From: Ricordea florida
Lineage: Eukaryota > Cnidaria > Anthozoa > Corallimorpharia > Ricordeidae
DNA length: 64,000 nt
Direction of reading: 5' to 3'
Assembly: GCA_949710005.1 (NCBI GenBank)
Contig: OX453276.1
Span: 27,963,613 to 28,027,612 of the forward strand
A program made the translations under genes and the position numbers. Each line of letters begins with the position of its first letter. Within the stretch, counting starts at the first letter, position 1. Of this stretch, positions 61,562 to 64,000 are shown piece after piece. The notes below the pieces were generated by a model. It had not been told where the DNA came from and did no database searches. It worked only from the letters and a program-made list of their open reading frames with translations.

Positions 61562-61867
61562 TTATATAACATACATGGATGGAATTTTACTAAACGTATA
61601 GAATAACGATTTAAACTTACGCCTCGACAAGAAAAATGGAAGATTCGGCGGTTCGAAAGCTTGATAAGCGATGCAAAACTTGCATCTGCAATAACTATGC
61701 GTGGAACTAATATATACTTGATAATCTCTACAATGAATGCATTGATGCGTGCAAACTTCTGGCATTTCACATAGGGTACATTGAAAAGGACATTGACAAA
61801 GTTCTCGTAAAAAAGGTACCATGTACCCTTCATCATCATCATCACAGTCATCATCATCATCATTGTC
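61562..61867 (-). CDS. Acceptor-led cassette 1: acidic plus Cys-rich
   Basis: Begins directly after a T-rich AG acceptor (AG at 61,868-61,869). The first about 14 residues are nearly all Asp. A Cys/His-rich segment follows: LCQCPFQCTLC, VCTHQCIHC, then YCRCKFC. The tail is basic and hydrophobic. The Cys spacing suggests a metal-binding fold of no family I can name. It is paralogous in plan to cassette 3. An internal ATG at codon 16 could also serve as a start. Confidence 0.5.
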   Translation of the reverse strand, partial: DNDDDDDCDDDDEGYMVPFLRELCQCPFQCTLCEMPEVCTHQCIHCRDYQVYISSTHSYCRCKFCIAYQAFEPPNLPFFLSRRKFKSLFYTFSKIPSMYVI

Positions 61868-61894
61868 CTAAAAAAAAGTAATATAATATTCATA

Positions 61895-62026
61895 CTAGGA
61901 TTGGGGTGGTTTGATTTTTATGATTAGTTCCCATTGTTCTAGTTCTGGAAGGGACATTTCCACTTCCCAACTTTCTTCGCTGATATGTGTATAATCATCA
62001 TCATCATCATCATCATCACTAATGTC
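61895..62026 (-). CDS. Acceptor-led cassette 2: Asp-rich
   Basis: Follows a TTTTTTTTAG acceptor in phase. DIS, then eight Asp from a GAT repeat, then a Glu/Trp-containing 32-residue tail ending at a TAG. It has no ATG near its start. It may be a shortened relative of cassettes 1 and 3 that lost the Cys part. Confidence 0.42.
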   Translation of the reverse strand, partial: DISDDDDDDDDYTHISEESWEVEMSLPELEQWELIIKIKPPQS

Positions 62027-62047
62027 CTAAAAAAAAGAGTAAAAAAT

Positions 62048-62299
62048 TTACTCTAGGGGTATAGAACCTATGTACCAGAACACATCAATACATTCTTTGC
62101 AATCGCAATGACCTAATTCATCGTACATGTGGTAACAATAATCACAATCACAACCACAATGGTAATGGTGATCAACATCATTCAAATCGTCACAAAGATC
62201 GCAATTACACATAGAATCTACCTCGAAAGACTCGAAAGAGAATTCGGAGGACAATGAAGAGACTTCGTCAAAGACACTGTCTCCATCACTATCATCATC
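62048..62299 (-). CDS. Acceptor-led cassette 3: acidic plus Cys/His-rich
   Basis: 83 codons after a TTTTTTTCAG acceptor. Acidic Ser/Asp start (DDDSDGDSVFDEVSSLSSEF), then CNCDLC, HHYHCGCDCDYC and GHCDCKEC, and a hydrophobic end. The first in-frame ATG is at codon 29, so in-phase splicing is the better explanation for the conserved acidic start. Confidence 0.5.
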   Translation of the reverse strand, partial: DDDSDGDSVFDEVSSLSSEFSFESFEVDSMCNCDLCDDLNDVDHHYHCGCDCDYCYHMYDELGHCDCKECIDVFWYIGSIPLE

Positions 62300-62325
62300 C
62301 TGAAAAAAATATATAGTGATTTTTT

Positions 62326-62496
62326 TTAATCATCCTCGTCTGGTAAAGGAATTAAAAATTGAAACGTGTGTAACGAACGATACAACATCAAGTCACCGTA
62401 AAAGAATTCAATCTCTATAAAATCAGATTCAGTGACATTGGGATTGTGGTATCTGTCCATAAGAAAACTTTTACAGTCATCAATTGACCGAAGTAT
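62326..62496 (-). CDS. Acceptor-led cassette 4: SIDDC family
   Basis: 56 codons after CTACAG. Opens ILRSIDDCKSFLMDRYHNPN and ends IPLPDEDD-stop. The opening S-I-D/E-x-C block, the DRY/NPN segment and the hydrophobic-acidic end recur in cassettes 5-8. No ATG at the start. Confidence 0.5.
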   Translation of the reverse strand: MLRSIDDCKSFLMDRYHNPNVTESDFIEIEFFYGDLMLYRSLHTFQFLIPLPDEDD

Positions 62497-62692
62497 CTGT
62501 AGAAAAAAAACGAAATCTCAAATCATCATCCTCGTCTGATAAAGGAATTATGTCTTGAAACATTCTTAACAAACGATACGCCATCAAGCTACTGTAAATG
62601 CGTTCAATCTCTAGAAGATCGTATTCGGTGACATTGGGATTGTGGTATCTATCCACAAGAAAACTTCTACAGTCATCAATTGACTGGAGCAT
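62480..62692 (-). CDS. Acceptor-led cassette 5: SIDDC family
   Basis: 70 codons after TCTGCAG. Opens MLQSIDDCRSFLVDRYHNPN, the one member whose first codon is ATG. Its end overruns the acceptor of cassette 4 by 17 nt, consistent with alternative acceptors on one transcript. Confidence 0.5.
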   Translation of the reverse strand: MLQSIDDCRSFLVDRYHNPNVTEYDLLEIERIYSSLMAYRLLRMFQDIIPLSDEDDDLRFRFFSTDTSVN

Positions 62693-62711
62693 CTGCAGAA
62701 AAAACGAAATC

Positions 62712-62879
62712 TCAAATCACGGGTCTAGAAGAAAAGTGGAAGTAGTCTATGTCAAATATTCTAAACGAACGGTACAAACTCAAGTCACTGTGAATGCGAT
62801 TAATATTTGCTACATTAGAATTAGGTGTGTTGTATCTATCCGAAAGAAAGCTTGTACAATCATCGATTGATTGGGTTAT
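62712..62879 (-). CDS. Acceptor-led cassette 6: SIDDC family
   Basis: 55 codons after a TTTTTTACAG acceptor. Opens ITQSIDDCTSFLSDRYNTPN. The C-terminus differs from cassettes 4 and 5 (Phe/His-rich). Confidence 0.48.
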   Translation of the reverse strand: MTQSIDDCTSFLSDRYNTPNSNVANINRIHSDLSLYRSFRIFDIDYFHFSSRPVI

Positions 62880-62905
62880 CTGTAAAAAATGAAAAAACGA
62901 ATCCG

Positions 62906-63049
62906 TCAAAGAAGCATGTTTTGAAACGTTCTTATCGGAGACATTAGATCATCGTAGGTATTATTTACTCTATCAGATACATTTAAAAAATATTCTAAAT
63001 CGTATCTAGCCGAAAGAAAGCTTGCACAATCTTCAATTGATTGGATTAT
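62906..63049 (-). CDS. Acceptor-led cassette 7: SIEDC family
   Basis: 47 codons after a TTTTACAG acceptor. Opens IIQSIEDCASFLSARY and ends TFQNMLL-stop. No ATG near the start. The shortest member of the family. Confidence 0.46.
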   Translation of the reverse strand: MIQSIEDCASFLSARYDLEYFLNVSDRVNNTYDDLMSPIRTFQNMLL

Positions 63050-63228
63050 CTGTAAAACGAAGAAAACGAATCTGTCAAAGATGGAAGAAGCATGTTTAGA
63101 AACGTTCGTTTCGCAGTTAAAAGATCATCGTAGATGTCTAGAATGTCGAATAGAATATATTCCTCTACGTTAGGTTCGTTGAATCTGTCTACACACAAAC
63201 TTGCACATGCTTCAATTGATTGGATTAT
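63046..63228 (-). CDS. Acceptor-led cassette 8: SIEAC family
   Basis: 60 codons after a TTTTTTTACAG acceptor. Opens IIQSIEACASLCVDRFNEPN. It reads into the acceptor of cassette 7 before stopping. Confidence 0.48.
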   Translation of the reverse strand: MIQSIEACASLCVDRFNEPNVEEYILFDILDIYDDLLTAKRTFLNMLLPSLTDSFSSFYR

Positions 63229-63289
63229 CTGTAAAAAAATGAGAAAACGAAAAAAACGAATTTTCAACTGCACGCACTCTTGCATTTGA
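63212..63289 (-). CDS. Acceptor-led cassette 9: short NAR frame
   Basis: 25 codons after TTTATTTACAG. Opens SNARVRAVENS. It is related to cassette 10 by the CAAATGCAAGAG core. Very short, so it may be only an alternative acceptor. Confidence 0.28.
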   Translation of the reverse strand, partial: SNARVRAVENSFFSFSHFFTDNPIN

Positions 63290-63419
63290 CTGTAAATAAA
63301 TAAAATGTATATATTATAATAATAATAATAATAATAAGAATAATAATAAAAATAATAAGAATATATGTCTCTTCATTGTTGAGTCTTTCTGTTCGCGCTC
63401 TTGCATTTGCTTGAAATGA
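63264..63419 (-). CDS. Acceptor-led cassette 10: NAR plus poly-Ile membrane segment
   Basis: 51 codons after TTTCTTTACAG. Opens SFQANARARTERLNNEE. It then runs through a TTA/ATT microsatellite that is read as an almost pure Ile/Leu/Phe stretch of about 25 residues, long enough to cross a membrane, and ends KCKSACS. Confidence 0.33.
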   Translation of the reverse strand, partial: SFQANARARTERLNNEETYILIIFIIILIIIIIIIIYTFYLFTVKCKSACS

Positions 63420-63438
63420 CTGTAAAGAAAATAAAAAA

Positions 63439-63552
63439 CTAATAGTATAGAAAGCGAATAAAGTCTGGACCGTAGAGAGACGATGCCATAATTAATATCT
63501 TCTTTTTTCTTGCATTGGCAACTATGATTTCTTCGTTTATACGAATAATAGT
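63439..63552 (-). CDS. Acceptor-led cassette 11
   Basis: 37 codons after a TTTTTTTTCATAG acceptor. Basic middle (ANARKKKILIM), again with an Asn-Ala-Arg motif shared with cassettes 9 and 10. No ATG near the start. Confidence 0.33.
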   Translation of the reverse strand, partial: TIIRINEEIIVANARKKKILIMASSLYGPDFIRFLYY

Positions 63553-63601
63553 CTATGAAAAAAAAGACAACGATGATTAATGATGATGATGATGATGATG
63601 A

Positions 63602-63877
63602 CTATTCATCAATAAACATTAATAGACGGGGATCGATTTCCATAAGGCATAACAAATTCTTGGCCATTTGACAAAGAGAACATACATCGTTTGGTAATAT
63701 GTGTACTTGATCGCAATGTTCGTCAATACTGTCGATGGCTTGATCGTAATTTCCAACGTCACGATTAACGATAACAGACGTGAATATACTGATTAAATTT
63801 GTAGCTGTTGCGATTACATTATGTCTGAAGCGGGGTGATCTCATGTTTAAGCTAAATCGTTCAACAGCTTGTATTAG
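63602..63877 (-). CDS. Acceptor-led cassette 12: LIQAVE
   Basis: 91 codons after a TTTATTTTCAG acceptor. Opens LIQAVERFSLNM, a distant match to IIQSIEDC. A middle with HCDQVHILPNDVCSLCQM suggests possible metal binding. An internal ATG at codon 12 is available. The stop is followed by a TCA/TGA trinucleotide run (about 63,582-63,600). Confidence 0.45.
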   Translation of the reverse strand, partial: LIQAVERFSLNMRSPRFRHNVIATATNLISIFTSVIVNRDVGNYDQAIDSIDEHCDQVHILPNDVCSLCQMAKNLLCLMEIDPRLLMFIDE

Positions 63878-63946
63878 CTGAAAATAAAAAAAGAGAGAAA
63901 AATATTATTATGCAATGTGGAAATCGATCATCGTTTACGTAGTTAA

Positions 63947-64000
63947 CTAGAAGAACTTAACAATTTGTTTAACGAGAGATCGACGATACGCTTTGACAGA
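63947..64000 (-). CDS. Partial cassette 13 running off the window
   Basis: The last 17 codons and stop of a frame that enters from beyond 64,000 (basic: AYRRSLVKQIVKFF). It shows that the array continues to the right. Confidence 0.3.
   Translation of the reverse strand, partial: SVKAYRRSLVKQIVKFF

Follow-up and report, generated by a model that had tools for sequence, protein, structure and literature searches.

A cassette array in a Ricordea florida Polinton/Maverick element: one RING-like leader with many predicted alternative C-terminal ends

Introduction

Near the right-hand end of a 64,000-nucleotide stretch of the genome of the corallimorpharian Ricordea florida (hereafter the window; contig OX453276.1, C5:27963613-28027612 of a 538-Mb genome), the minus strand carries a run of short open reading frames (ORFs), each lying directly behind a tract that ends in AG and most of them without a start codon. 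This raises the question of how such frames could be expressed and what their products would do. The original prediction was that a single leader exon, lying to the right of the window, is joined to many alternative terminal exons to give proteins with a shared start and exchangeable ends, and two settings were offered for such a gene: a DNA virus, or a host gene diversified by tandem terminal exons. The reading that we favour, with a probability of roughly 0.85, is that a gene in a Polinton/Maverick element has its RING-like leader spliced to any one of some 18 alternative C-terminal ends and so yields E3-ligase-like proteins that differ in their partners.

Results

Positions to the right of the window are given as window equivalents (position in locus L009 plus 63387); the labels L001-L048 denote loci fetched from the same genome for comparison, several of which overlap. 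Counted by hand, the whole array of the window element comprises 18 cassettes (20 in the automatic list), all on the minus strand. Twelve of these start within the window, at 63877, 63552, 63419, 63289, 63228, 63049, 62879, 62692, 62496, 62299, 62026 and 61867, and six precede the first one that lies wholly inside it. About thirteen cassettes had been predicted, and the thirteenth is probably the tail of the cassette that starts at 64174. Each cassette consists of a pyrimidine-rich tract, an AG and, immediately behind the AG, a frame open in phase 0, the tract being weak before cassette 6, which crosses the right window edge. The predicted single phase and length of 25-101 codons held for every cassette in the window, as did the scarcity of initial ATGs: two of the 18 have Met as their first residue, and three contain no Met at all. 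Distances to the previous stop are likewise tiny or negative throughout the array (-26 to 69 nt) with one exception of 137 nt, between cassettes 2 and 3.

Reading onward past the window edge revealed a leader exon where one had been anticipated, on the predicted strand. It is ATG-led, has 196 codons and lies about 1.4 kb to the right of the window (minus strand, L009:2009-2596, equivalent to 65396-65983) behind what appears by eye to be a TATA-like promoter. It ends in CTT|GTAAGT, i.e. in a phase-0 donor at L009:2008 that is compatible with the phase of the cassettes. The encoded protein has a Ser/Pro/Asp-rich N-terminus, a RING-like finger and, before the donor, a conserved segment, SE(E/Q)ATDALL-D(P/S)EFQRRIRL. 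When eight arrays were searched for four donor hexamers, the leader's was the one correctly placed in every array. The claim that no donor recurs within the array has to be corrected, as cassette 18 of the window element contains a second GTAAGT; one also lies near the array end in L014, L016 and L031, and additional donor-like sites were found in L023 and L026 (two each) and L048 (one). Judged by layout, the joining of one leader to many alternative terminal exons is supported.

We used a phase test on the same eight arrays (window element, L014, L016, L023, L026, L031, L045 and L048, out of 19 in the automatic list), scoring each AG by the pyrimidines in the preceding 16 bases (cuts of 12, 13 and 14) and calling a frame open if it ran for 30 or more codons. 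At a cut of 13/16, phase 0 was open at 95 of 112 acceptors, against 14 for phase 1 and 14 for phase 2. At the same cut, phases 0, 1 and 2 were open at 23, 22 and 23 of 92 sites on both strands of window positions 1-60000, and at 3, 3 and 1 of 19 sites on the opposite strand of the arrays. The looser cut of 12/16 gave 118, 31 and 22 of 169. As the eight arrays are related by descent, these draws are not independent; the two most divergent arrays taken alone (L045 and L048) gave 19 of 19 in phase 0, with 1 and 3 in the other phases. This bias bears on a different explanation, namely that the small ORFs are independent genes, each with a promoter and start of its own. Two of the 18 cassettes do start with Met, and two adjoining Arg-rich ORFs have TATA-like boxes and ATGs of their own (by eye), but independent genes would give no reason for a phase bias behind pyrimidine tracts, nor would they be expected to start without Met in 16 cases, to lack Met altogether in three, or to begin with residues as varied as the I, M, L, V, T or K found in the cassettes of the SIDDC type described below. 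We consider independent genes very improbable.

The leader and its array lie inside a mobile element of 23,538 bp (C5:28023808-28047345 of genome G000; window part 60196..64000), delimited by terminal inverted repeats (TIRs) and a target-site duplication (TSD). The left TIR (60196..60420, plus strand, the first 225 bases compared) begins AGTAGTAAGGGGGG and is identical at 225 of 225 bases to the inverted copy at C5:28047121-28047345. The left boundary, at window 60195/60196, is common to seven fetched loci, and a 6-bp duplication was found at all three copies tested (CTGGAG at the window element, CGAAGC and CCTGAC at the others). To the right of the leader, on the opposite strand, are an ORF of unassigned kind, a PolB of the protein-primed type (PF03175, E 8.8e-47) and an integrase with rve (E 4.2e-16) and Chromo (E 6.2e-9) domains. 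By four features, PolB, integrase, TIRs and TSD, the element is a Polinton, and by its ends it is complete; the identity of its TIRs indicates that it is young. Among the best 120 of 1262 matches to PolB, the best named relatives are from soft corals, Mya, Nematostella and the Rhodactis coral adintovirus (53% identity to its PolB-C over 76% of the query), with unnamed ENA proteins nearer still in the same set, at up to 70%. The element fits the description adintovirus-like, an assignment drawn from the closeness of its PolB to named adintoviruses. IMG/VR viral contigs searched with PolB, the leader, the leader profile, protein P0124 and the RNA core pattern described below yielded no relatives, and GTDB contigs searched with profile A6 gave no match.

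The element context agrees with the viral setting of the original prediction, the array being part of a Polinton/adintovirus-like element, and lends no support to the alternative of a host gene with tandem terminal-exon diversification that merely sits beside a transposon. Host genes with such a layout exist, mod(mdg4) being one (PMC4667647). Here, though, leader and array sit within the TIRs and TSD of a 23.5-kb element, adjoin its PolB and integrase, and occur in dozens of dispersed copies, and we give a host gene almost no credence.

The array query gave many dispersed genome matches, four of them at 96-97%. The leader gave 121 matches, which correspond to 100 places, 82 of them with a match ending exactly at residue 196; at the 65 places where it is fully spanned, 56 copies are free of stops, and a few weak partial matches may come from other RING genes. 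The final residues of the leader, written as a degenerate pattern, matched 95 times, some from another repeat, against 10 times for the reversed control. Donor retention was counted in 32 locus rows, i.e. 27 distinct places (L037 was left out, having no match that reaches residue 185), and GTAAG lies directly behind leader codon 196 at 24 of the 27. Four leaders at only 38-59% identity retain the donor, as GTAAGA. In a large protein set, of which the best 7985 candidates were scored, the leader profile found at least four matches. P0001 is 94% identical to the leader and continues past the donor with the short tail that the intron encodes in the window element too; in P0122, P0123 and P0124, from further ENA contigs, similarity ends at about the point of the donor; the next residues are VS in P0122 and P0124, compatible with a GTAAGT-type donor, and not obviously so in P0123. 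A rearranged copy was seen at L011, with a left-end piece of the element upstream of a truncated leader in opposite orientation.

Cassettes of the divergent arrays L045, L046 and L048 retain both phase and acceptor. Arrays with divergent leaders contain orthologues of cassette 1, cassette 2, cassette 7 (in L048), the SIDDC type and an acidic cassette, and the order of the cassettes held in common is unchanged by eye; part of the L048 locus reads N (masked), which hides its last cassettes. The first residue after the AG was invariant in the three cassette alignments made, those of cassettes 1, 2 and 7. The ratio of nonsynonymous to synonymous change (dN/dS) was computed from cassettes of at least 24 codons, free of N and with a stop in the locus, in reciprocal best pairs scoring 40 or more, alternative starts with a common stop being reduced to one. 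It was 0.16-0.46 in 12 of 17 array pairs, and diverged pairs had an excess of changes at third codon positions; three deep pairs were saturated (dS >2). These values fit selection on the element during its replication followed by drift of the inserted copies.

All cassettes described here are on the minus strand. Cassettes 1 to 5 lie wholly to the right of the window at equivalents 65113-65301 (exon start L009:1914), 64870-65076 (L009:1689), 64508-64732 (L009:1345), 64384-64482 (L009:1095) and 64187-64360 (L009:973). Cassette 6 (75 aa) occupies 63947-64174, its tail (63947..64000) being in the window. Cassette 7 (91 aa, 63602..63877) is 46% identical to its orthologue in L048, and cassette 8 (37 aa, 63439..63552) has relatives in L014, L016, L023 and L026. 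Cassettes 9 (51 aa, 63264..63419) and 10 (25 aa, 63212..63289) are followed by five of the SIDDC type: 11 (60 aa, 63046..63228), 12 (47 aa, 62906..63049), 13 (55 aa, 62712..62879), 14 (70 aa, 62480..62692) and 15 (56 aa, 62326..62496). The last three are 16 (83 aa, 62048..62299), with an acidic start and 10 Cys, the acidic 17 (43 aa, 61895..62026), and 18 (101 aa, 61562..61867), with an acidic start and 11 Cys, which holds the array's only other donor-like hexamer. A Pfam scan of ten cassettes gave as its best matches DUF2116 (E 0.055, cassette 1) and DUF4215 (E 0.47, cassette 7), neither of them credible, and ORFs of the array region in the window had no Pfam match.

Three paralogous groups had been proposed, of which the SIDDC type stands and a so-called NAR type, made up of cassettes 8 to 10, does not. 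Cassette 9 is probably a decayed SIDDC type with a microsatellite (local score 71 against a cassette of L014 and 37 against one of L023), cassette 10 is a decayed-looking fragment whose SIDDC relationship has a local score of only 20, and cassette 8 is a separate conserved cassette. The third group, the acidic Cys-rich cassettes 61867 and 62299, is a pair by composition; no two cassettes outside the SIDDC group attained a global alignment score of 35. SIDDC-type cassettes number five in the window element, eight in L016, seven in L017 and one each in L045 and L046, with none in L012, which is cut short, or L047, which is wrecked. In the comparison proposed with the original prediction, the closest pair in the window array (62692 and 62496) has dN = dS = 0.20 and the other nine pairs have dS of 0.74-1.60 and dN of 0.33-0.77. 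AlphaFold2 modelling of the SIDDC type (cassette 15), based on the five window cassettes, suggests two helices, with a mean predicted local distance difference test score of 84.5 for the best of five models and 70.1-81.8 for the other four; helix 1 is predicted to begin at residue 2, directly behind the junction. A PDB search with the SIDDC profile returned a single match (E 0.5), which is not credible.

The leader's finger was compared with known RING proteins. Pfam assigns it to RING PF13639 with E 2.9e-4 and a score of 21.5, below the cut-off of 27.3, and in a PDB sequence search its closest relatives were RING proteins such as RNF125 (E 7.8e-6) and RNF141, most of them E3 ligases by name. 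Its eight putative zinc ligands are all Cys, with CC replacing CxH, and are invariant in the seven leaders aligned (7/7); most of the stretch preceding the donor is likewise invariant. The sub-threshold score, the all-Cys ligands in place of C3HC4 and the lack of resemblance between the ten scanned cassettes and any known interaction domain would also suit a leader that is spliced to the cassettes and is no E3, its finger being a structural zinc module and the tails setting localisation, stability or virion assembly. Such a leader seems to us the less likely reading, given that the best PDB matches are to RING proteins, which for the most part carry the names of E3 ligases, and that the eight Cys do not vary.

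Within the 137-nt spacer between cassettes 2 and 3, the only large one in the array, lies a putative RNA element (minus strand, about L009:1365-1462, equivalent to about 64752-64849). The spacer of the window element folds as a two-level hairpin (minimum free energy -37, z -4.9) and contains a strongly conserved, purine-rich core of 27 nt, GAGGTTAGGGGTGGCTGTAAGGGGAGG. The core was found with up to five differences in 38 of the 48 loci; it is absent from L006, L007, L008, L018, L024, L028, L029, L034, L037 and L047, not all of which span the place. Where the donor is known, the core lies 565-738 bases behind it (1595 bases in L026), and L045, L046 and L048 have two tandem copies.

The inner hairpin has six pairs, and in 22 sequences two-sided changes were seen at three of them, with pairing broken in two cells at one pair and in one at another. 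RNAalifold on the 22-sequence alignment recovered the inner hairpin only, with a covariation term of +0.52, a positive value that does not speak for the hairpin. The outer stem, of 12-25 bp in a sequence-by-sequence search, has arms that differ between loci and stay complementary; it outscored all of 200 shuffles in 13 of 18 loci but did not do so in L014, L019, L025, L032 and L048. Fold z-scores for nine arrays ranged from -6.5 to 0.0 (-1.9 in L045, -2.6 in L046 and 0.0 in L014). An Rfam search of L009:1-2700 gave two sub-threshold snoRNA matches, neither at the hairpin. In L022, L045 and L046 the 3' arm leads straight into an acceptor, in L045 and L046 that of cassette 3.

These features make the hairpin a candidate splicing switch that would act on acceptor choice. 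A broader and tentative proposal, which we think doubtful as a whole, is a combinatorial effector gene in animal mobile DNA, with a RING-like leader and a birth-and-death array of target-binding ends, in which an intronic RNA switch would choose the end: in some arrays the 3' arm of the hairpin borders on the pyrimidine tract of acceptor 3 or extends over it, and a ligand or protein at the core would shift splicing from early to later cassettes. Alternatively, the element may be a small RNA, or it may act as a signal for the 3' end or for packaging.

The roughly 4 kb from the donor to window position 61501 contain six ATTAAA and one AATAAA as candidate poly(A) signals; one ATTAAA lies just past the last cassette, and the AATAAA sits at the foot of the RNA element. 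This number of signals could suit an arrangement in which the cassettes are separate terminal exons, each polyadenylated at a site of its own, as opposed to a single 3' exon region with alternative acceptors. Separate sites appear unlikely to us, as the whole stretch has a single AATAAA and the gaps, which with one exception do not exceed 69 nt, offer hardly any space for them.

Some other features of the window were noted. Downstream of the array, on the minus strand at 60978-61530, are the two tandem small Arg-rich ORFs, each with its TATA-like box and ATG and with no Pfam match; they may resemble core proteins of the adenovirus pX/mu type. Near-identical large segments recur about 24.4-26.5 kb apart (4884-5462, 31432-32010 and 55855-56433, with further pairs) and include, twice, a pair of neighbouring ORFs, one with ankyrin-like repeats and the other a possible NTPase (17081-19473 and 41530-43922, by eye). 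ORFs at 4884-6162, 31432-32710 and 55855-57208 resemble, by eye, fragments of a second PolB of the Polinton type, present in three copies, and a short zinc-ribbon ORF, TFIIB-like by eye, lies some kilobases from these fragments.

Discussion

From the layout, phase match, conservation and element context, all of which are observed, we infer splicing, E3 activity, a target-picking role for the tails and a common 3' end. The array would be the variable 3' part of a single gene of the Polinton/Maverick (adintovirus-like) element. Its TATA-like promoter would drive a minus-strand transcript beginning with the 196-codon leader exon, whose phase-0 donor would be joined to any one of some 18 acceptors further downstream. 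Every acceptor would open a different short C-terminal end in phase 0. Because each acceptor has its own end and stop, up to about 18 proteins with the RING-like part in common could be made from one promoter, and an unspliced form would add the leader with the short intron-coded tail. All forms would probably end at one 3' end past the last cassette, so that the choice is one of alternative 3' splice sites. The most likely function is that of an E3-ligase-like family in which the tail selects a host target protein, and tandem duplication of SIDDC-type tails would create new specificities.

Several observations weigh against this interpretation. The leader-cassette junctions are predictions from the sequence layout, and binding of targets by the tails is a conjecture, as the ten scanned cassettes match no known domain credibly. 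The leader does not follow the C3HC4/C3H2C3 ligand pattern, the usual His ligand being absent, and P0122 has Ser at one of the Cys ligand positions; all-Cys RINGs exist, and the eight-Cys ligand set therefore leaves an E3 possible under the label RING-like. Among the copies, L017 has a broken donor (TTAAGT), the match in L020 stops at residue 191, the nearby GTAAGC lying a few bases from the extrapolated donor position, and the match in L022 is unsuitable. L047 (leader identity 42%) has lost most of its array and has a long foreign-looking frame in its place, cassette 2 of L019, outside the three alignments, has P instead of A as its first residue, and cassettes 9 and 10 look decayed. Five of the 17 array pairs have dN/dS of 0.58-0.99, all at dS of 0.13 or less, and the third-position excess is not significant in four of these five; L016-L017, which is also close (dS 0.065), has 0.39. 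The ratios as a whole are skewed towards low values, because only open frames entered the counts.

If the interpretation is correct, the roughly 100 leader places, of many ages, form a natural record of array growth and change, the SIDDC-type tails ranging from one to eight once truncated and wrecked arrays are set aside. Standard gene prediction would overlook such an array, since most cassettes have no start codon and no known family matches the ones that were scanned, and other Polintons may for this reason hide similar ones. The RNA element raises the further question of how splicing is controlled.

Like Polinton/Maverick elements and animal adintoviruses, the window element has PolB, an rve-chromodomain integrase, TIRs and a 6-bp TSD; in addition, it has a RING-like leader with predicted alternative ends. 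We found no report of RING leaders, alternative splicing, RNA elements or such arrays in the open-licence literature on Polintons and adintoviruses, a scope that makes this weak evidence of absence. The closer parallel in layout appears to be mod(mdg4) of Drosophila and other insects, in which a common 5' exon region encoding a BTB domain is combined with many alternative 3' ends to give at least 31 isoforms (PMC4667647). The window array has, in its sequence layout, one donor and many phase-matched acceptors with their own stops, as such a mode of splicing would require. Still, mod(mdg4) is a host gene with large loci, partial trans-splicing and a BTB domain, whereas the window array occupies 4 kb of a mobile element, on one strand, with a RING-like finger and one leader donor. 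In adenovirus, one donor is joined to other acceptors to give proteins with a common start, e.g. E4orf6/7 and E4orf6/DBP (PMC9499273), but these fusions are few, in contrast to the roughly 18 short C-terminal cassettes, some tandemly duplicated, seen here. The layout would work like that of mod(mdg4), and more loosely like the adenovirus E4orf6 fusions, while belonging to neither. If so, a transposon-virus would have reached a solution of the mod(mdg4) type independently, within 4 kb and probably for the targeting of host proteins.

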